From assembly GCA_031255115.1 (NCBI GenBank), contig JAIRTD010000116.1, forward strand, positions 1 through 14,264: 14,264 nucleotides of DNA. The letters run 5' to 3'. Below the pieces are notes generated by a model that saw nothing but the letters and a program-made list of their open reading frames with translations, ran no database searches and had not been told where the DNA came from. This stretch comes from Spirochaetaceae bacterium. GTDB lineage: Bacteria; Spirochaetota; Spirochaetia; Treponematales; Breznakiellaceae. Below, piece by piece: positions 1,019 to 13,856 of this stretch (position 1 is its first letter; every line of letters begins with the position of its first letter). The translations under genes and the position numbers were made by a program.

Positions 1019-1047
1019 AAAACGCACTCCTTTAAAATGTACTCCTT
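1018..1047 (-). repeat. Tandem 15-bp duplication of the ribosome binding site in the hydA-permease gap
   Basis: On the minus strand two adjacent 15-bp units read AAGGAGTACATTTTA (1047-1033) and AAGGAGTGCGTTTTA (1032-1018), identical at 13 of 15 positions. The second unit supplies the Shine-Dalgarno sequence of the permease and its last A is the first base of the ATG. The first unit overlaps the hydA stop codon and has an equally good AAGGAG but no start codon after it. This looks like a small local duplication giving two ribosome-docking sites. Confidence 0.7.
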
Positions 1048-2827
1048 ATTTGATATACACCGGTCTTTCAACATAGCTGGTGTGCAAGAGTTTGTGGGCC
1101 TTGTGGCCGTTAGGCTCGCCGAGGAATTCATCATATACCTGTTTGATGAAGGGGTTCTGATGGGAACAGCGGAGCGTTGAATTTTCGTCGTCGGCGTAGA
1201 GGCCCTTGGTACGTTGTTTGCGCAGTTCGTCGACGCCGCCGTAGGGCTGGCCGCCGCCTGAAATACAGCCGCCCCGGCAGGCCATGACTTCAACAAAGTG
1301 ATAAGGGACTTCTTTTCCCGCGTCCCTGGCCGCCCGTATATGGTCAAGTACGGCGGCTATATTGCCCATCTGATGGGCTACGGCTATGCGTATTTTTGTG
1401 CCATTGCCAAAGTCAACTTCGGCTTCTTTGACTCCGTCAAGACCCCGGACCGGAAGGAAATTAACGTCGCCCAGTTCCTTCTTGGTAACGAGGAAGTAGG
1501 CGCTCCGCACCGCGGCCTCCATGACGCCGCCTGTTACACCAAAGATGGTCCCCGCGCCGGTATAGGGCCCCATGGGGCTGTCGGCTTCTTCGTCGGGGAG
1601 ATTGCGTACATCTATGCCGGCCTGTTTGATCATGCGGGCGAGTTCCCTGGTGGTTATTACTATGTCGACATCATTGCCGGCATTGACGCCGAGGAACGCG
1701 GCGGCGCTCTTCATATCGTCATTACGGTTTATTTCCCATTTTTTGGCCGTACAGGGCATGACCGAGACCGAATAGATCTTTTGCGGGTCTATGCCGGCCT
1801 TGCCGGACCAGTAGGCCTTAATCATGGCGCCCATCATCTGCTGGGGAGATTTGGCTGTGGAGAAATTCGGTATCATGTCATTGTAATACTTCTCCATATA
1901 GTCAACCCAGGCGGGACAACAGCTTGTAATAAGGGGTATGTCGGCCTTGCCGCCTCCGGCTATTTTGGTAAGCCGGGCAACCAGTTCCGTCCCTTCTTCC
2001 ATAATGGTAAGATCCGCGGAGAAGTTGGTGTCAAAGACGGTCTTAAAGCCCAGCCGCCTCAAGGCCGCGTATATTTTTTTGGTGAATACGGTTCCGGGGG
2101 GCAGGCCGAATTCCTCCGCCAGGGCCACCCGGACTGCCGGCGCTATCTGCACCACAGGATGTTTATCGGCGTCCTGGAGGGCCCTCCATACCTTGACCGT
2201 ATCATCGCGTTCATAAATCGCCCCTACGGGACAGTGGGCCGCGCACTGGCCGCACTTGATACAGGGGCTTTCTCCCAGGGGCGTATCCGCCGCGCTGGCT
2301 ATACGGCCCTTGATTCCCCTGCCCAGGAATTCCAGGGCCCATACATTCTGCATCTCCTGGCATACCTTGACACAGCGGCCGCAGCGTATACATTTTTCGG
2401 GATTGAGAACTATGGCCGGATTGGAATCGTCTATAGGAAGGCCATTAAGTACCTTGCGGTAGGGGGTTTCCCGTATGCCGAATTCGGCGGCCAGGGTCTG
2501 GAGTTCGCAGTTGCCGTTGCGGGGACACTGGAGACAGTCGCTGGGGTGGTTGGACAGTATCAGTTCCAGCACGGTGCGTCTTACCGATATGATTTCCGCG
2601 TCGTGGGTAACGATGTCCATGTTTTCTTCGACCTGGGTGGTACAGGCCCGGACCATGCGGGGGCTCCCCGCCATGCGCACGATGCAGAGCCCGCAGGCCG
2701 CCCAGGGGGGGAGGTCGGGGTTGTAACACAGAGTGGGTATTTCTATGTTGATTTTTCTGGCGGCTTCCAGGATGGAAACGCCGTCCTCAACCTGAACCGC
2801 TATGCCATTTATTTTAAGGTTTACCAT
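1046..2827 (-). CDS. hydA: [FeFe] hydrogenase catalytic subunit HydA (HndD type), M3 architecture
   Basis: This 593-residue protein is the H2-forming or H2-oxidising subunit of a cytosolic NAD-linked [FeFe] hydrogenase. Its cofactor ligands are visible in order. An N-terminal 2Fe-2S domain has C34, C45, C48 and C62. A His/Cys 4Fe-4S site has H94, C98, C101 and C107. A two-cluster ferredoxin domain has C146, C149, C152, C156 and C189, C192, C195, C199. The H-cluster domain follows, with motif L1 TSCCPAW (301-307), L2 MPCTAKKWE (357-365) and L3 MACRGGCISGGGQP (515-528); the proton-relay cysteine of L1 is present. The protein ends about 65 residues after L3, so it has no extra C-terminal NuoE- or PAS-like domain. 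Length matches HndD-type subunits of about 585 residues. GGAG lies 7 bases before the ATG at 2827. It is the last hydrogenase gene of the operon, 34 bp after hydB. All catalytic residues are present, so the subunit itself looks functional. Confidence 0.97.
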   Translation of the reverse strand: MVNLKINGIAVQVEDGVSILEAARKINIEIPTLCYNPDLPPWAACGLCIVRMAGSPRMVRACTTQVEENMDIVTHDAEIISVRRTVLELILSNHPSDCLQCPRNGNCELQTLAAEFGIRETPYRKVLNGLPIDDSNPAIVLNPEKCIRCGRCVKVCQEMQNVWALEFLGRGIKGRIASAADTPLGESPCIKCGQCAAHCPVGAIYERDDTVKVWRALQDADKHPVVQIAPAVRVALAEEFGLPPGTVFTKKIYAALRRLGFKTVFDTNFSADLTIMEEGTELVARLTKIAGGGKADIPLITSCCPAWVDYMEKYYNDMIPNFSTAKSPQQMMGAMIKAYWSGKAGIDPQKIYSVSVMPCTAKKWEINRNDDMKSAAAFLGVNAGNDVDIVITTRELARMIKQAGIDVRNLPDEEADSPMGPYTGAGTIFGVTGGVMEAAVRSAYFLVTKKELGDVNFLPVRGLDGVKEAEVDFGNGTKIRIAVAHQMGNIAAVLDHIRAARDAGKEVPYHFVEVMACRGGCISGGGQPYGGVDELRKQRTKGLYADDENSTLRCSHQNPFIKQVYDEFLGEPNGHKAHKLLHTSYVERPVYIK

Positions 2828-2861: not shown

Positions 2862-4304
2862 TTACTTCTTAACTATAGCGCCGAACTTACAGTTCTTAAA
2901 ACACTCGCCGCATTTGATACACTCATTCTGGTCTATCTTGTGGGCAGCTTTTTTCTCTCCGCTAATACATTTGGCAGGACAGTTTCGCGCGCAGAGGCCG
3001 CAGCCTATGCACTTTTCTGCCAGTATCTCATAACGGATAAGATGCTTACACTTACCGGAACGGCACTTCTTGTCCCTGATATGTTCAAGGTATTCGTCCT
3101 GGAAATTTCGCAGGGTAGACAAAGTCGGGTTAGGCGCAGTCTGTCCCAGGGCGCAGAGGCTTGCCTTGGACATGGCCTTGCCTATGCTTTCGAGTTTATC
3201 CAGATCGCTTTCTTCGCCGTTGCCCCGGGCGATTTTTTCGAGGATATTAAGGAGCTGGGTTGTACCGATGCGGCAGGGCGAACATTTACCGCAGGATTCG
3301 TCGACGCAGAAATCCATATAGAACCTGGCAACGTCGACGACGCAGTCGTCCTCGTCCATGACTATCATGCCCCCTGAACCCATCATGGAGCCGTTAGCCG
3401 CAAGGCTTTCGTAATCTATGGGAGTATCCAGCACCTTTTCGGTAAGTATGCCTCCTGAGGGGCCGCCGGTCTGAACGCCCTTGAATTTTTTGCCGTCCTT
3501 GATACCGCCGCCTATCTCAAAAATAATTTCCCGCAGGGTTGTGCCCATGGGAACTTCTACAAGGCCGGAATTTTTTACCTTGCCGGTAAGGGCAAAGACC
3601 TTGGTTCCCTTGGATTTTTCGGTTCCTATTTTTGAAAGCCAGGCGCCGCCCTTGGCGGTAATGACCGGTATGTTGGCCAGGGTTTCGACATTGTTGATGA
3701 TGGTAGGCTTCTGCCACAGCCCCTTGTTCGCCGGGAAGGGCGGTTTGGGAACCGGCATGCCCCGGCTGCCTTCTACCGATTTAATCAGCGCCGTTTCCTC
3801 GCCGCAGACGAAGGCGCCTGCGCCCAGGCGAATTTCGATTTCAAAGTCAAAGCCTGAACCGAGTATATTCTTGCCCAAAAGGCCGTATTCCTGGGCCTGG
3901 GCAAGGGCCTTTTTAAGCCGCTCAATGGCCAGGGGATACTCCGCCCTGATATACACAAAGCCCTGATGGGATCCTATGGCCTTGCCGGCTGTTATCATGC
4001 CTTCGATGACCGAATGGGGGTCGCCTTCGATGGTGGACCGGTCCATATAAGCGCCGGGGTCGCCTTCGTCGGCATTGCAGATAACGTACTTGACGTCGCC
4101 CTGGGACTTGCGGGCAAGATCCCACTTGAGCCAGGTTGGAAAGCCCGCGCCGCCCCGGCCCCTGAGGCCTGAGGCTTTCATCTCATCAATGAGCTGTTCG
4201 GACGTCCATTCAAAAAGGACCTTCTCAAGGCCCGCATAGCCTTCGCGGGCTATGTATTCGTCGATGCTCTCGGGGTTGATGACGCCGCAGTTCCTCAGCA
4301 CCAC
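2862..4304 (-). CDS. hydB: HydB/HndC (NuoF-like) NADH/FMN-binding hydrogenase subunit, main body downstream of an in-frame stop
   Basis: This is the body of the flavin subunit that exchanges electrons between NAD(H), ferredoxin and HydA. Counted from the GTG at 4304 (480 residues), it shows the NADH/FMN site GRGGAGFPTW (49-58), CNADEGDPGAY (76-86) and GAGAFVCGEETAL (161-173). The 4Fe-4S site is ESCGKCSPC (C338, C341, C344) with C384. Two ferredoxin-type clusters follow at C432, C435, C438, C442 and C462, C465, C468, C472. The GTG at 4304 has no Shine-Dalgarno and lies inside conserved sequence, so it is only a formal start. The same frame runs back through 54 more family-like codons (SFYVGLKPEDA, then IVKGREVPRLLY) to a TAG at 4467-4469, and beyond it through the N-terminal 2Fe-2S domain to an ATG at 4652. 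Without the TAG the protein would be 596 residues, normal for HydB. The gene is therefore a nonsense-interrupted hydB, a sequencing error, or a read-through gene. Family identity is certain; the start is uncertain. Confidence 0.9.
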   Translation of the reverse strand: MVLRNCGVINPESIDEYIAREGYAGLEKVLFEWTSEQLIDEMKASGLRGRGGAGFPTWLKWDLARKSQGDVKYVICNADEGDPGAYMDRSTIEGDPHSVIEGMITAGKAIGSHQGFVYIRAEYPLAIERLKKALAQAQEYGLLGKNILGSGFDFEIEIRLGAGAFVCGEETALIKSVEGSRGMPVPKPPFPANKGLWQKPTIINNVETLANIPVITAKGGAWLSKIGTEKSKGTKVFALTGKVKNSGLVEVPMGTTLREIIFEIGGGIKDGKKFKGVQTGGPSGGILTEKVLDTPIDYESLAANGSMMGSGGMIVMDEDDCVVDVARFYMDFCVDESCGKCSPCRIGTTQLLNILEKIARGNGEESDLDKLESIGKAMSKASLCALGQTAPNPTLSTLRNFQDEYLEHIRDKKCRSGKCKHLIRYEILAEKCIGCGLCARNCPAKCISGEKKAAHKIDQNECIKCGECFKNCKFGAIVKK

Positions 4305-4466
4305 ACGGAACTGCTTCTGGTAAAACTCAAGGTCCTCGACAGCGAGCTTCTTCTGCCTTTCGTCGTCGTGATTGTAAAGGAGCCGGGGAACTTCCCGGCC
4401 CTTGACAATCTGTTCGGCGATGATTTCGACGGCGTCTTCCGGTTTTAAGCCAACATAAAACGAATC

Positions 4467-4469
4467 CTA
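4467..4469 (-). other. In-frame TAG codon interrupting hydB
   Basis: The minus-strand codons here read GTG CTT CCT TAG GAT TCG TTT TAT, that is VLP-stop-DSFY. HydB-like sequence continues in the same frame on both sides, with no shift and no missing segment. This codon falls in the short linker between the thioredoxin-like 2Fe-2S domain and the NuoF core. No ATG, or GTG with a Shine-Dalgarno, lies shortly after it to restart translation. TAG ends hndB, hydC, the DUF58 gene and the receiver gene in this window, so it is an ordinary stop in this genome. Confidence 0.9.
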
Positions 4470-4652
4470 AGGAAGCACATTGACTATGTGACCCTTTTCG
4501 CAAAATCCGAAGCAACCGGTCTTGACGATCTGAACTTCGCCTACGACGCCCTGCTTCCGGGCCTCGGCAATGAGTCTTTCGTAAATTTCAGCGCCCTTGT
4601 TGGATTCGCAGCCAGTACCGCCGCAGGTCAGTATGTAATGGTTATACGCCAT
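4467..4652 (-). CDS. hydB: HydB N-terminal 2Fe-2S thioredoxin-like domain, separated from the HydB body by TAG
   Basis: This 61-residue frame is the N-terminal domain of HydB, not an independent gene. Ligands for one 2Fe-2S cluster are C10 and C15 (ILTCGGTGCESNKG) and C47 and C51 (KTGCFGFCEKG). The domain ends with HIVNVLP, at the point where full HydB proteins continue into a linker. The start is strong: AGGAGG five bases before the ATG at 4652. The in-frame TAG follows, and after it family-like sequence resumes in the same frame. If translation stops here, the cell makes a small soluble 2Fe-2S fragment plus, at best, a truncated HydB body. In the intact complex this peripheral cluster lies on the electron path of the flavin subunit. 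Confidence 0.8.
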   Translation of the reverse strand: MAYNHYILTCGGTGCESNKGAEIYERLIAEARKQGVVGEVQIVKTGCFGFCEKGHIVNVLP

Positions 4653-4661
4653 GCCGCCCTC

Positions 4662-5054
4662 CTAACCCATAATATCGGCGGAAGGCCGGTCAAGGATATG
4701 GTTATCCAGGAGCTCTTTCCCGATAAGATGTTTTTTGACTATCTCGCCAGCGACGGCGCTGTCAACCTTGCCATAGATGACTCTGGGCATTCCCGGAGCT
4801 ATCACTTCGACGGTAGGCTCAGAGTGGCACAGTCCCATGCAGCCCGTCTGGCGCACCATGACCGAGTCAACAAGATTATTGTCATCCAGGGCCTTTATAA
4901 AGGCATCAAGGGTATTTTTTGCCCCTGCGGCAATACCGCAGGTTCCCATACCGACTATAACCTGTATTTCTTTACCTTCAGCATCCCGTTTGCGCAGATC
5001 ATTTTTTTTGGAATCCCTGAGTTTGCGCAGGTCCTCCAAGCTCATCTTACCCAT
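4662..5054 (-). CDS. hndB: HndB-like 2Fe-2S thioredoxin-fold hydrogenase subunit
   Basis: This 130-residue protein matches the HndB family of small subunits found with NAD(P)-linked [FeFe] hydrogenases. It has a charged N-terminal helix (MSLEDLRKLRDSKKNDLRKR) and then a thioredoxin-like core with GMGTCGIAAGAK (C39) and RQTGCMGLCHSEPTVEV (C72, C76). It ends with YGKVDSAVAGEIVKKHL, normal for the family. Only three conserved cysteines are seen, as I recall for HndB proteins, so cluster binding may use another ligand. GGAG lies before the ATG at 5054. It starts 12 bp after the ATPase gene. It ends in TAG, and three codons later, in the same frame, hydB begins, so read-through would fuse HndB to HydB. 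It probably mediates electron transfer within the complex. Confidence 0.88.
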   Translation of the reverse strand: MGKMSLEDLRKLRDSKKNDLRKRDAEGKEIQVIVGMGTCGIAAGAKNTLDAFIKALDDNNLVDSVMVRQTGCMGLCHSEPTVEVIAPGMPRVIYGKVDSAVAGEIVKKHLIGKELLDNHILDRPSADIMG

Positions 5055-5066
5055 TTTGAAGCTCCT

Positions 5067-5615
5067 TCATTCTTCTGTTTCTATGGACCGCAGATACCGG
5101 TCCAGCAGTGCCAGGGAAGACCCGTCCTCAAGGTCTCCCAGGGCGTCCATCAGTTCTGACTTTCTGACTTCATAATTATTCTTTTTGTTGTCCCGGTCAA
5201 GAAAACGGCGCACAACCACTTCTTTGGGACCGGGAAAGAGAAAAACCGTTCTAAAAAGCCCGGGCAGGTCTCCTATCGGCGGAGTATCCACATTGGCAAT
5301 GTCGAACCAGGCGCTGACCGTAGTCCCTTTGTCTTTTTCTGATTTTACATCCCAGCCGCCTCCTGACTGTGAAGCGGTCTGCATCAAAAAAGGAATGCCC
5401 AGCCCAACCTTGCGCCCGGGGTGCTTTTCGCCGTCTGTCCCAAAAGGGTCCATGGCCCTGTCCAGTTCTTCCCGGCTCATGCCTTTTCCGTTATCCCGAA
5501 CCTCAAAGCGGAATTCCCGGTCGGTCTCCCGGACTTCAAGCTCCACGAGAGCCGCTCCGGATTCAAAAGAATTCTGCGTAATGTCGGTAACCAGGTCGCT
5601 TAGAGTAAAGTGCAT
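5067..5615 (-). CDS. Small GHKL (histidine-kinase-like) ATP-binding protein in the hydrogenase operon
   Basis: The 182-residue protein holds a HATPase_c domain in residues 1-105 and no kinase, sensor or membrane part. The N-box is LVTDITQNSFESG (8-20, with N15). The G1 box is RDNGKGM (40-46), followed by a lid and DPFGT (56-60). The G2 box is GRKVGLGIPFL (67-77) and the last strand is DKGTTVSAWF (95-104). No phosphoacceptor histidine domain precedes the ATPase, so it resembles anti-sigma factor/SpoIIAB-like ATPases more than a full kinase. The remaining 77 residues match nothing I recognise. Similar ATPases sit between hydC and hndB in clostridial bifurcating-hydrogenase clusters, from general knowledge. 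That conserved position suggests a role tied to the hydrogenase, regulatory or in assembly; the role itself is not known to me. Start: GGGGAG five bases before the ATG at 5615. Confidence 0.85.
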   Translation of the reverse strand: MHFTLSDLVTDITQNSFESGAALVELEVRETDREFRFEVRDNGKGMSREELDRAMDPFGTDGEKHPGRKVGLGIPFLMQTASQSGGGWDVKSEKDKGTTVSAWFDIANVDTPPIGDLPGLFRTVFLFPGPKEVVVRRFLDRDNKKNNYEVRKSELMDALGDLEDGSSLALLDRYLRSIETEE

Positions 5616-5657: not shown

Positions 5658-6155
5658 CTACTTGTTCCGGTATTTGGCAATGATTTCGGGTAATTGTTCC
5701 TTGGTAAGTTTTCCATCGGTTTCGGTCCCTACCGTTAGAACCGGCGCGAGGCCGCAGCAGCCCACGCAGCGGACCGGATCGATGGAAAAAAGGCCGTCAT
5801 CGCTTACGCCGCCTTCTTCAAGACCCAGTATGCTTCTTACTTCATCAATCATGTCCTGCCCGCCTTTGAGATAGCAGGCGGTTCCCAGGCATACGGAAAT
5901 TTTGTGCTTGCCTGGTTTGGTCGTTTTAAAGAAATGATAAAAGGTGATGACTCCGTAAATTCTCGCCAGAGGAATACCGCTGAGAATTGCGAGTGTTTCC
6001 GCAGACTCCCGGGAAATAAACCCAAAGGTTTCCTGAATTTTGTGCAGAATCATGATAAGGCTGCCAGGCTTTGCTCTCCATTCTTCAATAAAAGTGGAAA
6101 GTTCCTGGGGAAATTCCCCGGTCCCGGCAGGGATAGTTCTTTTGGTATGGTCCAT
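5658..6155 (-). CDS. hydC: HydC/HndA (NuoE-like) 2Fe-2S hydrogenase subunit
   Basis: This 165-residue protein is the small NuoE-like subunit that pairs with HydB in NAD-linked [FeFe] hydrogenases. The N-terminal helical part (20-70) contains the family stretch LIMILHKIQETFGFIS and IPLARIYGVITFYHFF. The thioredoxin-like part binds one 2Fe-2S cluster through C89 and C94 (SVCLGTACYLKGG) and C130 and C134 (RCVGCCGLAPVLTV); C133 is an extra cysteine inside the motif. The length is normal. It is the first gene of the operon. AGGGGGA precedes the ATG at 6155, and a sigma-70-like promoter lies just upstream. The gene ends in TAG, 42 bp before the ATPase gene. Confidence 0.95.
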   Translation of the reverse strand: MDHTKRTIPAGTGEFPQELSTFIEEWRAKPGSLIMILHKIQETFGFISRESAETLAILSGIPLARIYGVITFYHFFKTTKPGKHKISVCLGTACYLKGGQDMIDEVRSILGLEEGGVSDDGLFSIDPVRCVGCCGLAPVLTVGTETDGKLTKEQLPEIIAKYRNK

Positions 6156-6411: not shown

Positions 6412-6436
6412 GGCGAACCTTACACTACAATTCGCC
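6412..6436 (-). terminator. Weak stem-loop at the DUF58 stop codon, possible terminator of the membrane-module operon
   Basis: In the transcript GGCGAA (6436-6431) pairs with TTCGCC (6417-6412) across a 13-base loop that contains the TAG of the DUF58 gene. An AU-rich tail follows (TAACATATTTAAAAT), but not a real U-run. A second longer-range inverted repeat, TCAGGAA (6350-6356) with TTCCTGA (6385-6391), lies further downstream. Together they could separate this operon from the hydrogenase operon, but neither is a textbook terminator. Confidence 0.35.
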
Positions 6437-7750
6437 GGATCTTTTGATACGAAGGTAACTGTTTATCAGCGCGGGGGAAAGGCCCGCGGCGGAAGTTTCC
6501 AGAGTATGGATGCCGAGGTGTTCCCAGGTTTTATAAAGCTGCTTCCGCGTGTACAGATAGGAATGGGCGGCCGCCTTGACATAGGCGTCTTCGGTCTTGC
6601 CGGGTTTTTGCCTGGCAAGTTCTTCGGCTTCTTTTTCTCTGAGGCTTACGGTAAGGAGGAGGTGCCGCCGTTTTATCCGGGGAAGTATCCACGAGAGGGA
6701 CTCGCCGTCTTCTTCGCGGAAATTGCTGATGAGGATGATAAAGCTGCGGCGGTGAAGCCTGGTAAGGGCCTGTTCCAGGGCTGAAAAAGGAGAAGAAGGC
6801 AGGGGCGCGCTGCGCAGATCGTAGAGTTCGTTTATCAGGGCGCTGAGGGCGCTTATGCCCTTATGGGGCGGGAGCCAGTGATCGCCGTTGCCGAAAACCC
6901 CCAGCGCCACCGAGTCTTCGTGTTTCAGGGCTACATACGAAAGAAGCACCGCGGCGCTGATAGCGCTGTCGAACTGGGTGTAGTCTCCTTCCTGACGGTG
7001 GAGCCGGTATCCTGAATCAATGAGAAGAAGAATCTGCTGGTCCCGTTCTTCCTGGTATTCCCTGATTATGGGTTTAAGGCGGCGGCTTGTGGCCCGCCAG
7101 TCTATGGCCTTGACCGGATCCCCGATCTGGTATTCCCTGAGCCCCTGGAATTCGAGGCCCTGGCCCCGCATGCGTATGCTTTTAAGGCCGGTGCGTTCCA
7201 GAAGGCCCCGCAGGTCCTGGCCGCCGAGAATTTTTTTAAAGTCAGGATAGGTCCTGCCCCGGCTTATGGTTTTGTGGACTGTCTTGCGGCGCCAGAAATG
7301 AAGCGGCGAACTCAAAAGAAAGTGTATGCCGGAAAATTCCCATTTGCCCCGCTCGGCCGGTATCAGGGCATATTCAAAAACCATTGCCCCGCTTTTTTTT
7401 AGGCTGCCTGAACCAAGCCGCACCGGCATCAACTCAGGCTGTGCGGTATTCATTGAGCGGGGGTAGAGGTCAAAAATTTGTATTGAAGAAGAAATAAAGC
7501 CCCTGCCCTCAGGCCGTATGGTGATACGCACCGGGGAACTTTTTCCAAGCGCCAGGGTGCCGGGTATGTCCCGTTCCGAACTGAGTTTGTCGGTGAGGAG
7601 CATGAGGACCAGAGCGTCAAGAAACAGCAGCACGGGAAGTATGAGGCTTGCGAAAAGCCAGATCAGGGAAAGCGTTGACGAAAAGTAGGCCCCTATACCA
7701 AGGAAGAACCACAGCAGGGCGGTGATAAAAAGGGCCGGGGCGCTTTTCAT
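6425..7750 (-). CDS. DUF58 family protein (MoxR-associated, vWA-like domain)
   Basis: A 441-residue protein. Two membrane helices (about 6-24 and 28-53) anchor a large cytosolic part. A beta-rich segment follows (65-160), then the DUF58 signature FQGLREYQIGDPVKAIDWRA (201-220) followed by TSR. Next comes a vWA-like fold starting LLLIDSGYRL (241-250, D245 at the metal-site position). DUF58 proteins are the standard partner of MoxR ATPases, and the ATG here overlaps the moxR stop by 4 bp (ATGA), implying translational coupling. The pair is thought to act as a chaperone that remodels or inserts metal into client proteins; no client is evident here. It is the last gene of the operon and ends with TAG at 6425. 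Confidence 0.92.
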   Translation of the reverse strand: MKSAPALFITALLWFFLGIGAYFSSTLSLIWLFASLILPVLLFLDALVLMLLTDKLSSERDIPGTLALGKSSPVRITIRPEGRGFISSSIQIFDLYPRSMNTAQPELMPVRLGSGSLKKSGAMVFEYALIPAERGKWEFSGIHFLLSSPLHFWRRKTVHKTISRGRTYPDFKKILGGQDLRGLLERTGLKSIRMRGQGLEFQGLREYQIGDPVKAIDWRATSRRLKPIIREYQEERDQQILLLIDSGYRLHRQEGDYTQFDSAISAAVLLSYVALKHEDSVALGVFGNGDHWLPPHKGISALSALINELYDLRSAPLPSSPFSALEQALTRLHRRSFIILISNFREEDGESLSWILPRIKRRHLLLTVSLREKEAEELARQKPGKTEDAYVKAAAHSYLYTRKQLYKTWEHLGIHTLETSAAGLSPALINSYLRIKRSGEL

Positions 7751-8721
7751 GTTCTGGGGGCCTCGGTCTTTGCGGCAAGGGCCTCTATGATACGGACTTC
7801 TGTGTTTCCTTCAAGCTCGCTTTCGGCCGAAAGGGTAAGGCGGTGGGCGAGGACCTGCACCGCCACTTCCCTGATGTCGTCGGGAATGACAAAGTCCCTT
7901 CCGGCAAGCAGGGCGCGGCTTCTGCCGCAGCGTACCAGAGCAAGGCTGCCCCGGGGTCCGGCGCCTGACTGCAGCGCGGGCGAAGCCCTGGTGGCGGCGG
8001 TAAGTCGTACCGCGTAATCAATGACCGCGGGGTCGACCCGTACGGAGGAACACAATTTTTGGATGGCCATAAAATCACGGGGCCCCATGACGGCGTTTAT
8101 GCCGGACACCGAAAGTTCGGCGCCGGTTCCGCCTGAAAGTACCCTGCCGACCATTTCCTTTTCTTCAGCTTCCTGGGGATACTGTACCAGGGCCTTCATG
8201 AGGAAGCGGTCCTTCTGGGCGTCGGGCAGGGGATAGGTGCCTTCGTGCTCAAAGGGATTTTCCGTGGCCAGCACCATGAAGGGGCTGGGAAGCGGATGGC
8301 TTACTCCGTCAAGAGTAACCTGAAATTCCTGCATGGCCTCAAAGAGGGCGGCCTGGGTTTTTGCCGGGGCCCGGTTGATTTCGTCGGCGATAAAGAGATG
8401 GGTAAACACAGGCCCCTTCTTGGTAACAAAGTCGCCGCTTGCCGTATTGAGCATGATATTGCCGGTAATGTCGCTGGGCATGAGGTCGGGGGTAAACTGG
8501 ACCCGTTTGGACTCGCCGCCTATGGCGCAGGCTATGGAACGGACAAGGAGGGTCTTGCCCAGGCCGGGGACGCCTTCTACAAGCACATGGCCGCCGGCAA
8601 GGAGGCTGGTGAGCAGGCAGTCGACAAGCTCTTTCTGGCCGATAAAGGCCTTGGCTATTTCCGTTCTGACCGAGTCAATCGCGGCGGCGGCGCTTTCGAT
8701 GGTATAACTGTTTTCGTTCAT
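7747..8721 (-). CDS. MoxR family AAA+ ATPase
   Basis: A cytosolic ATPase of 324 residues, the usual MoxR length. Walker A is GVPGLGKT (50-57). Walker B is LFIADE (109-114), followed by INRAPAKTQAALFEAMQE. Sensor 1 is in ATENPFEHEGTYPLPDAQKDR (N155), and the C-terminal helical lid includes ALVRCGRSRALLAGRDFVIPDDI. Members form hexameric rings that act as chaperones together with vWA or DUF58 partners. The start overlaps the stop of the DUF4350-like gene by 4 bp (ATGA), and its own stop overlaps the DUF58 start in the same way, so the three are translationally coupled. GGAGCGATT lies ahead of the ATG, giving a usable ribosome site inside the upstream gene. Confidence 0.95.
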   Translation of the reverse strand: MNENSYTIESAAAAIDSVRTEIAKAFIGQKELVDCLLTSLLAGGHVLVEGVPGLGKTLLVRSIACAIGGESKRVQFTPDLMPSDITGNIMLNTASGDFVTKKGPVFTHLFIADEINRAPAKTQAALFEAMQEFQVTLDGVSHPLPSPFMVLATENPFEHEGTYPLPDAQKDRFLMKALVQYPQEAEEKEMVGRVLSGGTGAELSVSGINAVMGPRDFMAIQKLCSSVRVDPAVIDYAVRLTAATRASPALQSGAGPRGSLALVRCGRSRALLAGRDFVIPDDIREVAVQVLAHRLTLSAESELEGNTEVRIIEALAAKTEAPRT

Positions 8722-9947
8722 AATCGCTCCAATATGGTATGAATGGTTTCCATGTCCCTGACAAATTCCCCGGACCGTAAAGAGCCGGGACGCCGGGGAT
8801 TAAAAAGCCTGTATACGTCATTATGATCTACCCCGCACAGTTCGGCCAGGGCGCGGCAGGAGGCCTCGTCAATCTCTTCGACATCGCTTCCCCGGTGTTT
8901 TGCCAGGCCCTGCCTGATGGTTTCCCGGTAGGGTTCAATATAGGAATCAAGGGCGCCGTAATGTTTGAGAAAACGGGCCTCGGCAAGGAAACGCTCGCCG
9001 ATGGGTTTTCCCGGCTTTTCAGGCGCGTCAAAAAGCTGCCCGAACACCGGGACAATCATCCAGAATCCTATGACCAGAACCACCGCCAGGGAAAGCAGGA
9101 AGGGAAGCAGGTTCCCGCCGCCGGCCAGGGTTCTCCAAAAACCCGGAGACGGTTTTCTTCCCCGGATAAAGAGTACGCCCTTTCCGCCCCGGTCCTCTGC
9201 TCCGGTAAGACTCCAGGCAAGACGGGCGTTAGGCGCATTCCTGAGCCTGAAATTCCGCATGAATACAGGGGCGCCGAAAAGGGTAACGGAACCCTCTCCC
9301 ATCTTTACCGTAACGAGCCTTATTATGTCCCGGCTGTCTCTTGCGGCAAAATGTTCCGAAGGAAGTTCGCCTGGGTCGAATTTAATCCGGTAGTCAAAAG
9401 AAGGCCCTGGCGGCACTTTTTCTTCGCCGCCGTCTTTTGCGGCTTCGTTATTCGCCACGCTGTCTGCGTCTGCCGCGCTTGTTTCGTCCGGGGCGTCGTC
9501 TTCCGCGCCGTTGTCTGTTGCTTCCTGGTCAGCGCCAAAGAACCGGGCGCTCTCTATGCCCAGGTCAAGAAACAGTTGTTCCATGCCTTCGGAGTATTCA
9601 TTGTTCCATTCCCGGTCCAGGGAGACAAGGAGGCGGCCGCCTTTTTCTACCCAGGGCTTTAAGCGTTCGTAATTTTGCTCTGACCAGCGAAAAAGCGAGG
9701 CCTGTACATACACGGTTCCTTCTCCGGCCCGGGGTATTGTCGCGGCGTTGGGGCTGGTTTCGGTACGCACCGGATGGCCGGTCCTGGTAAGCCAGCGTTC
9801 CAGGGCGAGGAATTCATTTTCCAGGGCCTGGGGAGAAGGCGGCAGGGGTTCATCCCAGGGCGTTACTTCAAAAAAACTAAAGGCGAGTATGGCTATGACG
9901 ACGAGGATGCTGGCCGTAACGATGAGGGCGGGAGCGTGTTTATCCAT
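8718..9947 (-). CDS. DUF4350-like membrane protein of the MoxR module
   Basis: The 409-residue reading from the ATG at 9947 is preferred over a start 25 codons upstream, because GGGAGG precedes it and the overlap with the previous gene becomes only 8 bp (ATGGATAA). Membrane segments lie at about 6-26 and 279-303. Between them is an extracytoplasmic domain with a Rossmann-like beginning (GTVYVQASLFRWSEQNYERL, then WVEKGGRLLVSLDREW), as in DUF4350/GldG-like domains. Residues 139-177 form a strongly acidic low-complexity insert that breaks this domain. The C-terminal 100 residues are a cytosolic helical tail, with ERFLAEARFLKHYGALDSYI. Genes of this kind usually sit directly before moxR, as here. 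The domain name is assigned from pattern and context, not from a profile search. Confidence 0.78.
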   Translation of the reverse strand: MDKHAPALIVTASILVVIAILAFSFFEVTPWDEPLPPSPQALENEFLALERWLTRTGHPVRTETSPNAATIPRAGEGTVYVQASLFRWSEQNYERLKPWVEKGGRLLVSLDREWNNEYSEGMEQLFLDLGIESARFFGADQEATDNGAEDDAPDETSAADADSVANNEAAKDGGEEKVPPGPSFDYRIKFDPGELPSEHFAARDSRDIIRLVTVKMGEGSVTLFGAPVFMRNFRLRNAPNARLAWSLTGAEDRGGKGVLFIRGRKPSPGFWRTLAGGGNLLPFLLSLAVVLVIGFWMIVPVFGQLFDAPEKPGKPIGERFLAEARFLKHYGALDSYIEPYRETIRQGLAKHRGSDVEEIDEASCRALAELCGVDHNDVYRLFNPRRPGSLRSGEFVRDMETIHTILERL

Positions 9948-11508
9948 TGGCCCCTCCCTGTATGGAAGCGCAGAAAGCCAGGGCTGCTTCAAAATAGTTT
10001 GAATCAGGGATCCTGCCGCCATAGGCCATGGCTATCCATGAACGGAGGAAGACGCTAAAGCTTTCCGCCTCGGGAGTGTTCCGCGCCTTGAGCAGCTTCA
10101 GGCAGCCGTATTCGGTGGCGTCCCGGGGAAAGGTAAAATTATCCCGCTCGCTGAACGCGGCGAGTATGGCGGCAAAGCACTGCGCCCAGGCTTCCCGGAC
10201 AAGGCCGCGGCGCCATAATTCCTTTGCCCCCTCAAGAAGCAGGGAAGAATTTTTTTCCTTTTCCGCTTTGGCAAGGGCGGAGCTTTTCCAGCCCCTGTTT
10301 TTTTTGATGAAGCCGCCTGTTTTTAGGTAGCGGTAAAGGCCAAAGCCCATGAGCGCCGCTATGCCGGCAAAGAGCAGGGCCCTGAGGAACAGGCCGAATA
10401 TCTGCTTGACATTGCCGAACGAGGGGAAAGCGTCAAAGAGGGGTTTCTGCTCTTCTGTTTTTTCTCCTGATTCCCTGGGCTGTATGCGCCAGCTTTTTTT
10501 CTCTCCGCCAAAATCAGGGGAAGCAAGCACTTCGTCAAGCTGTTTGAGGGCTTCTTCTTCTCCGGTGAGCGGCGCGTCGGCGCTGTTTTGGAAGGAAGCC
10601 TCCGCGGAAGTCCCGGCAATATCCTGAACGTCTGACGCTGTTTCGCTGTAAAGGGGCTGTATGCCCGGCCCCAAAAGCAGCGCGCCAAGGACCACTATTC
10701 CGGCGATTCCCGAAAGCGCGGGGTTAGGCGTTTTTCCGGGCCCGCCGGATCTTGCGGCGTCCGGGGCGGGGTTCGCGTCGTTTTTTCCGGCAAAGCGCTT
10801 AAAATCAAGCTGCAGGTCCCAGCCTTCGGTCTCAAGCCTGCTGTTGATGTAAATGCCGAAATTCATGCAGATATAAAGACTTTCGACGACAAGAAAATTT
10901 ATTCCGTTTACAACGACGGAAAGTACGGTAAAAAATGTGGCGTAGTCCTTAAAGACTTCGTCAAAACTGCCCAGGTCCAGCATGCTGAGTACAATAACGG
11001 TAAATAAAAATTCCCCGGCAAGAAGCGTATAGTTAAGCGCTATGCCAAGTATGGTTACCATGAGGCAGAAACCGAGGCCGCCTGATTCCAGCATGGCTAT
11101 GCGTTTTCGCGCGGTCCTGCCTGTAAGTTTTTCGAGTACCCGTACCGGCATGCGGCCTCCCCGCCAGGGGCTAAAACGCCGCCACAAGAGATCCCCTGCG
11201 AGGCCGCTGCGCAGCGATTTTCCCAGTCCGCGGAAAAGACGGGGCAGGGGAGCTTCCGGATCAAAAAAGCGTACTGCAATGACATGAAGTATAACGCGGT
11301 CAAAAAGAGGCTTGAACCACCAGAGGCCGAAGAGAGCCTTAAAAAGAACGGTCCGGGGAAGAAAGCAGAGGCCAAAAACAACAAGGAGGCAGGGCAGGGC
11401 AAAAAAAAGCAGCAGCGCGCCGGCATTGCGTCGCCAGAGCAGAATACCCGCGTCCGAGGCCTCCCAGCCGCTTCTTCTACGCAGGCGCAAAAAATCCCTG
11501 TCAGCCAC
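9940..11508 (-). CDS. Large multi-pass membrane protein with DUF4129-like C-terminal domain
   Basis: A GTG start at 11508 (522 residues) is chosen: purine-rich AGGAAGGAAAG precedes it and it overlaps the upstream stop by 8 bp (GTGGCTGA). An earlier start at 11577 would overlap the neighbour by 77 bp. About six hydrophobic segments are visible: 30-52, 57-80, 146-176, 186-215, 266-282 and 369-392. After the fourth comes INSRLETEGWDLQLDF (221-236), a motif common at the membrane exit of DUF4129-type proteins. The region 283-365 is polar and probably extracytoplasmic. The tail 422-517 is a cytosolic helical domain (LLEGAKELWRRGLVREAW, FPRDATEYGCLKLL) resembling DUF4129. In related loci DUF4129 is often fused to transglutaminase domains; none is present here. 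Function unknown; probably a structural membrane partner of the MoxR system. Confidence 0.72.
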   Translation of the reverse strand: MADRDFLRLRRRSGWEASDAGILLWRRNAGALLLFFALPCLLVVFGLCFLPRTVLFKALFGLWWFKPLFDRVILHVIAVRFFDPEAPLPRLFRGLGKSLRSGLAGDLLWRRFSPWRGGRMPVRVLEKLTGRTARKRIAMLESGGLGFCLMVTILGIALNYTLLAGEFLFTVIVLSMLDLGSFDEVFKDYATFFTVLSVVVNGINFLVVESLYICMNFGIYINSRLETEGWDLQLDFKRFAGKNDANPAPDAARSGGPGKTPNPALSGIAGIVVLGALLLGPGIQPLYSETASDVQDIAGTSAEASFQNSADAPLTGEEEALKQLDEVLASPDFGGEKKSWRIQPRESGEKTEEQKPLFDAFPSFGNVKQIFGLFLRALLFAGIAALMGFGLYRYLKTGGFIKKNRGWKSSALAKAEKEKNSSLLLEGAKELWRRGLVREAWAQCFAAILAAFSERDNFTFPRDATEYGCLKLLKARNTPEAESFSVFLRSWIAMAYGGRIPDSNYFEAALAFCASIQGGANG

Positions 11509-12466
11509 GGTTCTCTTTCCTTCCTGAAAAAACAAAATAGGCAAAAAGCAGAATCCAGTTTGCCGTCCCGGCGGCATATTTTACCATTACCGGAATATTG
11601 TGGCGGGAGGACCAGAAAGCCTCAATTGCCGCGGCAATAACAAGGAGGAGGGCGCTTCCTCCAATAATCGGGACGGCGGTTTTTCCCGCCCGTTTAAGAC
11701 TCGCCGCCCTGGTAAAACCCTGGGTAACAAAGAGACGGTAGCCAAGGTAGAGACCGGCAAAGGCGCTTAATACTATGGCGCTCAGTTCAAAGCTGCTGTG
11801 TCCGATGATAAACGACAAAAAAGATTCGCCGAAATTTTTGTTTACGATATGGCCCGCAGCCGCGCCAAGAAACACGGCGTTAAAAATCAGGAAGAACAGG
11901 CTCCCTACTCCGGCAATTATGCCGCCCGCGAAGGTTCTGAAGGCGATAGAAATATTATTGTAAATATAGTAGCCAAACATGTCGGCGTCAGAACTTACGT
12001 CCCTGGGGTTAAGAAAATGGCTGCTATCCGGGTTGTACATGCTTTCAAACTGCCAGGCCTGATCTTCTCCCAGTATGATATAGGCAAACTCGCCCTTCCT
12101 GACGCAGAGCAGAAAGACAGCGAAGCCGAACACATAAAAAAGAAGGTGAGCCGCCGCGATGCCCTTCCAGTGGGAACGCACCGCCCGGGGAAAACGGTAT
12201 ACAAGAAAATCAATGAAAGCCTTGGGCGAAAAGGACCTCTGGCCGTAGAGGATCTGGTTGCCTTCAAGGACCAGACGGTTCAGGCGCTCTATTATCGCAG
12301 GATCAAAGCCGTGGGCCCTTGCGGTATTGAGATCCTGGGTCAACTCGCGGAAGGCCTGGGGAAACCAGCTGGAACAGGAACGTATCGCCTTGTTTCCGCC
12401 GCGGATACATTCTTCAACCTTGTTCCAGAAGGGCTGCCTGGCTCCGACAAAGTGCTGTTGAGTCAC
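11501..12466 (-). CDS. SpoIIM/DUF95 family membrane protein (stage II sporulation protein M-like)
   Basis: 321 residues from a GTG at 12466, with GGGGG eight bases before it. A soluble helical N-terminus of about 100 residues (FVGARQPFWNKVEECI) is followed by membrane segments at about 101-121, 172-207, 215-243, 265-285 and 300-315. Family hallmarks are YNNISIAFRTFAGGIIAGVG (169-188), IIGHSSFELSAIVLSAFAGL (220-239) and IEAFWS (281-286). In Bacillus, SpoIIM works in engulfment-related peptidoglycan remodelling, but most members occur in non-sporulating bacteria next to RDD, DUF4129 and MoxR genes, as here. A sporulation role is not implied; a part in membrane or envelope remodelling is a reasonable inference. 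It begins 2 bp after the RDD gene and overlaps the next gene by 8 bp. Confidence 0.9.
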   Translation of the reverse strand: MTQQHFVGARQPFWNKVEECIRGGNKAIRSCSSWFPQAFRELTQDLNTARAHGFDPAIIERLNRLVLEGNQILYGQRSFSPKAFIDFLVYRFPRAVRSHWKGIAAAHLLFYVFGFAVFLLCVRKGEFAYIILGEDQAWQFESMYNPDSSHFLNPRDVSSDADMFGYYIYNNISIAFRTFAGGIIAGVGSLFFLIFNAVFLGAAAGHIVNKNFGESFLSFIIGHSSFELSAIVLSAFAGLYLGYRLFVTQGFTRAASLKRAGKTAVPIIGGSALLLVIAAAIEAFWSSRHNIPVMVKYAAGTANWILLFAYFVFSGRKENRG

Positions 12467-12468
12467 TT

Positions 12469-13182
12469 TCAGCCCCCGCTCAGGGTATGGGCAATGCCGA
12501 GAAGGTATTCGGCGGCGTTTTCTTCGACTCTGCCCGAGAGTGAAGGGACATAGATACGGGCAAGTTCTTCGGCCCGGTCGGGCCCAAGAAGGGGATAGCG
12601 TCCGGCAAAACTCAGTATGGCCTGTTTTTCTTCATACGAAAGATTCCGGCCGGGACTGATTTTTTTAAAATGGCCTATCCAGGCAAGACCTGCCCGCCGG
12701 GCCGGCGCCTGGGCGTTGGCGGTGTACACCACCAGGGTATCGGCTACCCAATCGCCCAGCCGCCTGAAACCAGGACTCAGGCTTACCGAAAAAAGCATGA
12801 TGTAGTACAGGAACATAAAAGTGTCCGCAAAGCGGAGCAGATTCCGCAGCAGGGAAGAGCCGGGGCCCACCGGCGAACCGTCGCTCTGCACTACCCTAAG
12901 GCCAAGAATGCGTTTTCCAACGCTTTGGCCCCTAAACATGAGTTCGCAAAATACATGGTAGAACCAGCTTGTCAGAAACAAGATCAGCAGCATGAGCCAC
13001 ACTCCGGTGATCCGGGCAAGTATGCTGACGCCCAACTCCACTGCCAGAAAGAGAAAAAACTGAATCACACTGTCGAGTCCGTAGGCGGTAAGGCGTATCA
13101 AAAGCCCCGCCGGATACAATACGAATTCAATGCCCTCAGGGGTCAATACGCTGAAAGACGTGTCCTGGTTCCGCCGGACCAT
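12469..13182 (-). CDS. RDD family membrane protein
   Basis: 237 residues with the RDD signatures: R30 and D37 in the first helix (RLTAYGLDSVIQ), the loop FRGQSVGKRILGLRVVQSDG (83-102), LLRNLLRFAD (111-120), and RRLGDWVADTLVVY (140-153). Three hydrophobic segments lie at about 25-56, 60-83 and 120-136. The last 80 residues form a cytosolic tail (LSYEEKQAILSFAGRYPLLG) found in the RDD subgroup associated with SpoIIM and MoxR genes. Its start is coupled to the upstream gene by a 1-bp overlap (TAATG), with no strong Shine-Dalgarno of its own. RDD proteins are small membrane proteins, a few linked to ion transport; the specific role here is unknown. Confidence 0.9.
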   Translation of the reverse strand: MVRRNQDTSFSVLTPEGIEFVLYPAGLLIRLTAYGLDSVIQFFLFLAVELGVSILARITGVWLMLLILFLTSWFYHVFCELMFRGQSVGKRILGLRVVQSDGSPVGPGSSLLRNLLRFADTFMFLYYIMLFSVSLSPGFRRLGDWVADTLVVYTANAQAPARRAGLAWIGHFKKISPGRNLSYEEKQAILSFAGRYPLLGPDRAEELARIYVPSLSGRVEENAAEYLLGIAHTLSGG

Positions 13183-13679
13183 TAAATAAACCTGGAACTA
13201 ATGCCGACTATCAACAAAACTATCGTCAGTACCGGCGTGGAGATAATACAGGCAAGGATCATGATGCCGCAGAATTTCCAGTAGGAACGGTTGCTTTTAA
13301 GCGCCCCCTCAAGTTCGCTTTCCATGCCGGTCTGAACATAGTTACGCGCCTTGGAACCGAAGCGGTAGAGAAAACGCGCCGGAATCAGACAGAGTAGTCC
13401 CGCTATCAGGTAGAGCAGGGCCATGGCAAGTACGGGGATTTTGCCGAAAGTGCTGCCAAAGGCATTTGCCGCCACAAAACCGGGGATTAAAAGCACCGCC
13501 CCTCCCAGAAAGCAAAGACCGCTGATGATGAATCCTATAATGCCGACGAAGCGAACCCAGGGCGAGGTTTCTTTAAGATATTTGACCATATTTTCGGTGA
13601 TTCCGGCGCCGCCTGTCAGCGGCGAGCGGGCATTCAAATCCGATTGGGGACTTTCGTAGGGATTGACGTTATCAGACAT
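13182..13679 (-). CDS. Small membrane protein, DUF5362-like
   Basis: 165 residues, first gene of the membrane-module operon. The N-terminal 30 residues are polar and rich in Asn, Ser and Pro (MSDNVNPYESPQSDLNARSP). Hydrophobic segments lie at about 41-67, 82-106 and 134-160. An amphipathic stretch with YLKETSPWVRFVGIIGFIIS (34-53) and FLYRFGSKARNYV (103-115) resembles DUF5362 proteins. The start at 13679 is supported by AAGGAG six bases upstream. It overlaps the RDD gene by 1 bp. No function can be assigned; position suggests a membrane accessory of the module. Confidence 0.72.
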   Translation of the reverse strand: MSDNVNPYESPQSDLNARSPLTGGAGITENMVKYLKETSPWVRFVGIIGFIISGLCFLGGAVLLIPGFVAANAFGSTFGKIPVLAMALLYLIAGLLCLIPARFLYRFGSKARNYVQTGMESELEGALKSNRSYWKFCGIMILACIISTPVLTIVLLIVGISSRFI

Positions 13680-13693
13680 AGTTTCTCCTTAAT

Positions 13694-13722
13694 TTTATAC
13701 TCCATAGATTTGAGTTTGTCAG
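13694..13722 (-). promoter_or_regulatory. Candidate promoter of the membrane-module operon, overlapped by a palindrome arm
   Basis: On the minus strand CTGACA (13722-13717) and TATAAA (13699-13694) are each one base off the sigma-70 consensus and 17 bp apart. The -35 box lies inside the arm of the 40-bp palindrome, so a protein bound there would block the promoter. A caution: the predicted start near 13687 falls within the AAGGAG ribosome site, giving an unusually short leader. Confidence 0.4.
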
Positions 13723-13754
13723 GTGTGGAATTAGTTAATTCCCTACCTGACAAA
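13715..13754. repeat. 40-bp imperfect palindrome (candidate operator)
   Basis: Outer arms TTTGTCAGGT (13715-13724) and ACCTGACAAA (13745-13754) are perfectly complementary over 10 bp. Inner arms GGAATTA (13727-13733) and TAATTCC (13736-13742) add 7 bp, with a 2-bp imperfect step between them and a 2-base centre. It holds the half-site TTGTCAG once in each orientation. No U-run follows on either strand, which argues against a simple terminator. Confidence 0.75.
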
Positions 13755-13768
13755 CACTTAAAATCGGA

Positions 13769-13799
13769 ATTCTCTGACAATTTCAAATTGTCAGAGAAT
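13769..13799. repeat. 31-bp perfect palindrome next to the first (candidate operator or hairpin)
   Basis: Arms ATTCTCTGACAATTT (13769-13783) and AAATTGTCAGAGAAT (13785-13799) are perfect 15-bp inverted repeats around a single C at 13784. The half-site TTGTCAG again occurs once per arm, giving four copies in alternating orientation within 80 bp. It lies 58 bp after the receiver-domain gene and could also act as a 3' hairpin of that message, though no U-run follows. Confidence 0.8.
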
Positions 13800-13856
13800 A
13801 GAACCTGATATATTTTTACCCGAAAAACTCCCATCGGTCAACATTGGAGCTGATTG

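Follow-up and report, generated by a model that had tools for sequence, protein, structure and literature searches.

The window analysed here is one whole contig (14,264 nucleotides) of a draft genome, G000, that comprises 1,915,264 bases in 323 contigs and is 74% complete. Its source is an uncultured spirochaete, probably of the termite gut, a habitat that we presume from its close relatives. Among named relatives, the nearest are metagenome assemblies of Treponema and Spirochaetaceae, and Leadbettera azotonutricia (protein P0090) is placed in the Breznakiellaceae in the NCBI taxonomy. A hydB frame is surrounded by hydC-like, ATPase-domain and hndB-like genes and by an intact hydA (Table 1), and the locus thus has the make-up of an ordinary HydABC-type operon; the name hndB is one that we take to apply. 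From sequence matches we assign the operon to the electron-bifurcating HydABC-type [FeFe] hydrogenases, with the hydB frame, which shares it with genes for HydA and HydC, as the putative HydB/HndC beta subunit. No second hydB copy was found in the assembled part of the genome, where the two other matches are weak and short, at 38% and 24% identity. Seven successive ORFs occupy positions 6425-13679 on the minus strand; we take them to be a MoxR/DUF58-type cluster with putative membrane proteins, presumably with its ATPase at 7747-8721.

Table 1. Features of the hydrogenase operon and of its interrupted hydB frame, in window positions.
Feature	Position	Strand	Evidence
hydA, [FeFe] hydrogenase catalytic subunit, intact	1046..2827	-	Pfam
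hydB/hndC frame of 597 codons, interrupted by a single stop	2862..4652	-	Translation, Pfam, alignment to solved chains
First possible restart ORF, GTG start, 480 aa with FMN, SLBB and 4Fe-4S domains and a C-terminal ferredoxin domain; lacks a ribosome site	2862..4304	-	
Four odd bases, 4489, 4479, 4469 and 4448 (codons 55, 58, 62 and 69), all G:C to T:A relative to congeners	4448..4489	-	
In-frame TAG, codon 62, predicted within the N-terminal 2Fe-2S thioredoxin-like domain	4467..4469	-	
61-aa product predicted for a real TAG, with the 2Fe-2S ligands retained and the fold cut short	4467..4652	-	
Small hndB-like protein, no Pfam match, TAG terminator as in two congeners	4662..5054	-	
HATPase_c protein of the hyd operon	5067..5615	-	Pfam
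hydC/NuoE-like 2Fe-2S thioredoxin-like subunit, TAG terminator	5658..6155	-	Pfam

The window also carries, at 13692-13810 on the plus strand, a copy of a dispersed repeat of about 107 nt with two strong adjacent hairpins (z -9.3). Other copies lie on other contigs of the same genome, L176:81-187 and L176:1890-1998 among them. A first look gave 69 candidates, and with 40 of 147 candidates scored the repeat is present at no fewer than 39 places outside contig C31, that of the window included, and 33 of these are at least 92% identical. It is found patchily in the family (35 of 195 genomes at E≤0.001), with no copy in G001 or G003 and a 30-nt match in G002, and the two stretches searched matched no Rfam family. 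The element looks like a REP/BIME-type mobile repeat; a fragment of a Y1 (IS200/REP-type) transposase is present at a contig end (L230, G000:C1:1-108), and this transposase is a possible mover of the repeat.

Translation of the hydB frame from the ATG at 4652 to the TAA at 2862 (597 codons including the final TAA) agrees with the first-pass annotation that the TAG at codon 62 is its sole interruption; in the present assembly the gene is therefore not the one continuous reading frame that it is in the relatives counted. The annotation was also right that there is no frameshift near the TAG, since the frame aligns to 29 relatives and to the solved HydB chains. Its claim that the cofactor ligands survive on both sides holds as well: the four cysteines of the 2Fe-2S domain (C10, C15, C47 and C51) are present and invariant in a 10-sequence alignment, and Pfam recognizes FMN/NADH-binding (Complex1_51K), SLBB, NADH_4Fe-4S and C-terminal 4Fe-4S ferredoxin domains after the stop. 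The position assigned to the TAG, at the junction of 2Fe-2S domain and flavin body, needs correction. Modelling of the N-terminal domain of an intact relative (P0133; mean pLDDT 75.6, pTM 0.69, moderate confidence) gives strands at residues 57-60 and 64-66 followed by a helix at 73-83, and because codon 62 lies between the two strands the model places the TAG inside the thioredoxin-like 2Fe-2S domain and not between domains. The 61-residue product would retain all four cysteines and lose the last strand and the helix, and this fragment alone has no Pfam match. In the related A. mobile HydB (PMC8880783), the middle domains span residues 113-536 with the 2Fe-2S domain ahead of them, and the latter is reported to be flexible in part and not to be resolved when FMN/NADH is bound.

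The stop is peculiar to the window. A search of 195 genomes of the family, with up to six candidates scored per genome, gave some match in 193. None of the 130 other matches listed with scores of at least 864 bits (from 129 genomes; 127 cover residue 62) has an internal stop, and neither does any of the 116 distinct HydB genes that cover residue 62, one further locus being without that site. Residue 62 is Glu in 91 of these 116 genes, Asp in 11, Ser in 10 and another residue in 4. The alignment to relatives that had been proposed as a check returned Glu in 128 of 128 close proteins (each of at least 560 residues) and a stop in the window alone, and residues 55 and 58 are P and K in all 128; these sets of 130 matches, 116 genes and 128 proteins overlap. 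Three loci (L063, L120 and L123) had long spans suggestive of inserts, but on re-alignment each is a full-length match of the usual kind and free of stops.

When codon composition was scanned over 21 contigs of the genome (134,947 bases including the window), the best 25 of 320 candidates included six in-frame stops with a coding score of 0.137 or more on both sides. Five of the six have a start codon 3 to 13 codons past the stop, and the hydB TAG has none for 54 codons. Among those best 25 of 320, no other in-frame stop stands out so plainly, and the scan also has weaker candidates with distant starts. The hydB TAG exceeds chance expectation.

We compared the operon with two congeners and 11 further relatives (n = 13) for changes private to the window. 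Six private changes in hydB fall at otherwise invariant residues (codons 55, 58, 62, 69, 108 and 518), and four of the six lie in codons 55-69; these four odd bases are found within 42 bases, hit residues fixed in the 13 relatives compared, and all belong to the C>A or G>T class. In hydB, each of the two sisters has three comparable sites, and the window's genome has three in hydA, two in hydC and none in hndB or the ATPase gene. No similar cluster was seen elsewhere in the five operon genes. Random placement in a simulation brings four of six changes within 15 codons with P 0.0006. The fall of all four into the C>A/G>T class has P 0.0003, given that 58 of the 443 other private nucleotide changes counted across the operon's five genes are of this class. 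Both values are post hoc. When conservation in 98% of the 128-protein set is used instead, the window differs at residues 55, 58, 62, 108 and 570, and the first three cluster (P 0.0035, post hoc); residue 69 falls just under the cut, being conserved in 125 of 128. With the odd bases 4489 and 4479 a short inverted repeat becomes complete, and as read from the sequence the distances between the four sites are 10, 10 and 21 bases; we regard both as coincidence. When 15 ORFs on contig C31 were set against the congeners, one cluster of three C>A-type replacements turned up amid several other differences, and we do not count it as a second example; the comparison is silent on nonsense changes, because its ORFs were chosen open.

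Because the anomalies are clustered in one base-change class, a single local event is suggested, which probably arose during sequencing or assembly and not in the living cell. The simplest event of this kind would be a few miscalled bases where coverage is thin, and a real mutational burst is a possible one. The reading that we favour, as the probable one, is thus that the TAG is a local consensus error in the draft contig. A stretch of about 42 bases would carry a small burst of wrong base calls, arising from thin coverage or from one damaged or poor read, and one of these calls would have turned a conserved glutamate codon into TAG; the stop would then be absent from the living organism, where the gene would be an ordinary intact hydB. 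Several observations speak against a consensus error. Of the 128 homologues, 3 likewise have at least three private changes clustered within 15 codons, and at 98% conservation only three of five changes cluster. Odd changes are also not abundant overall in the parts that were compared. A raised replacement ratio in codons 117-596 (see below) could hint at real relaxation. Finally, an intact allele of the same species was not found among the matches listed from 5.8 billion sequences clustered at 90%; the nearest protein to the full frame, among the best 120 matches listed of 8000 candidates scored, is 90% identical. This absence is weak evidence, because the database is clustered at that level, because near records may be missing from search results and because the window's own 480-aa ORF is likewise absent from the matches listed.

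A search with the 61-aa peptide, which admitted proteins of about 34-107 aa, recovered the window's own peptide and 17 others. Six of them (P0140, P0141, P0142, P0145, P0146 and P0147) are N-terminal HydB pieces of 55-68 aa, and two of the six sit on contigs of 69,658 and 114,125 bases. Such pieces may arise through contig ends, stops or frameshifts, and breaks in this domain, real or erroneous, may occur elsewhere in public data. They give no rate, because the search admits only proteins of this size.

The principal rival, which we regard as clearly less probable though a serious contender, is a real and very recent nonsense mutation, segregating or just fixed, which would abolish HydB or leave only 61 aa of it; the distal hydA may then also be hit by polarity. 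The frame is otherwise clean, and the lack of a second hydB in the assembled part is compatible with such a loss. Some relaxation of the gene might also be expected to register in the ratio of replacement to silent private changes, which we compared between the window lineage and its two sisters with uncorrected p values. Over the whole of hydB the window lineage has 39/87 and the sisters have 27/104 (p 0.064); p is 0.146 once the four codons are left out and 0.128 for codons 63-596. For codons 117-596 the ratio is 28/67 against 19/91 (p 0.046). However, hydA leans in the same direction (28/94 against 20/106, p 0.20). Outside the cluster, constraint thus looks close to normal, codons 117-596 being the one weak exception. 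These sequence comparisons suggest a weak hint of relaxation at most, and since hydA leans alike, hydB has presumably been under selection for nearly all of the history of the lineage. Decay would moreover be expected to scatter its changes with the usual spectrum, whereas the anomalies occupy 42 bases and belong to one class, and the stop has no counterpart among the 130 other family matches listed. The first-pass annotation had argued that intact ligands on both sides imply a very recent event or continued expression, which is fair, but a consensus error would look the same.

A third possibility is that the TAG is read through by means of a suppressor tRNA, pyrrolysine or programmed readthrough, with full-length HydB being made. 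The retention of the ligands on both sides of the TAG and of the body domains would suit this, as would the finding that the best match to RF1 (prfA) in the draft genome falls under the cut-off. However, prfA is above the cut-off in 33 of 39 genomes searched, congeners G002 and G003 included, and below it in G000, G001 and four others, and the apparent absence of RF1 is therefore best explained by genome incompleteness. TAG terminates 30 of 94 mechanically chosen ORFs on the 21 contigs, and it also ends hndB both in the window's genome and in two congeners. The proposed search for an amber suppressor or pyl genes found no CTA anticodon among 19 tRNA loci of this 74%-complete genome and no PylS in four draft genomes of the genus, the window's included, in a search whose controls gave some match in 13 and passed the cut-off in 1 of 14. 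The RNA around and after the stop is folded no more stably than shuffled sequences (z -0.17, with 78 of 200 shuffles folding as well) and so gives no sign of a stimulatory structure, and the stop is conserved in 0 of the 116 distinct HydB genes. A recoded TAG was rejected on terminator use, the lack of PylS in the four draft genomes and the lack of a second stop as clear among the best 25 of 320 scan candidates, and we regard readthrough as very unlikely. The first-pass annotation had left nonsense mutation, sequencing error and readthrough side by side; the first two stand, and the third is poorly supported.

It is very unlikely that translation instead restarts at GTG 4304 (codon 117), the first in-frame start past the TAG, to give a 480-aa NuoF-like body with a ferredoxin tail, the N-terminal domain being dispensable or supplied in trans. 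In favour of a restart, this ORF starts ahead of the flavin domain and retains every domain that follows. However, relatives as a rule have full-length genes, and the anti-SD duplex energies are only -0.7 (GTG 4304) and -1.9 (GTG 4301), against -6.8 to -10.7 at five hyd-operon starts, with later in-frame ATGs reaching only -1.5 to -3.2. The earlier statement that no rescue start with a ribosome site follows the TAG is thus upheld, and yet a weak site is not decisive alone, because three other window genes with accepted starts also have weak ones (-3.1 to -3.7). A database protein of 484 aa with 10 members, P0121, begins one codon past the position of GTG 4304 and would favour restart, but its first residue is V and it could be an incomplete gene, or else another HydB that has lost its N-terminal domain. 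Readthrough and restart are jointly very improbable, because TAG is an everyday terminator here, PylS was not found in the four draft genomes and the restart codon lacks a ribosome site. We think it similarly improbable that the TAG is real and tolerated, whether through a separate 2Fe-2S stub and NuoF-like body or through readthrough.

If the TAG is a consensus error, as we think probable, then a lone stop in a draft genome is best judged together with its neighbouring bases, and a cluster of same-class changes at conserved residues offers a cheap warning. If it is real, the sole HydABC-type hydrogenase found in the assembly of this gut spirochaete would have its NADH-linked subunit either lost or split, and were it real and tolerated, the mobile N-terminal domain of HydB would be uncoupled from the bifurcating core.

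Compared with the solved HydB chains 7q4v_B, 7t2r_B and 7p5h_B, which we take to derive from A. woodii, A. mobile and T. maritima, respectively, residues 2-595 of the window protein align to residues 2-598 of the 599-residue 7q4v_B, and the window differs by its single in-frame TAG and by three odd residues, all of them in the N-terminal domain. Young nonsense pseudogenes are a known class that the locus resembles in its single stop within an otherwise conserved frame, but unlike the scattered changes of such genes its anomalies are clustered and of one class. False stop codons and local base-call errors are likewise well known in draft metagenome-assembled genomes, and the locus resembles these in its isolated stop, its intact flanks, the absence of the stop from every relative counted, and its one-class neighbours.
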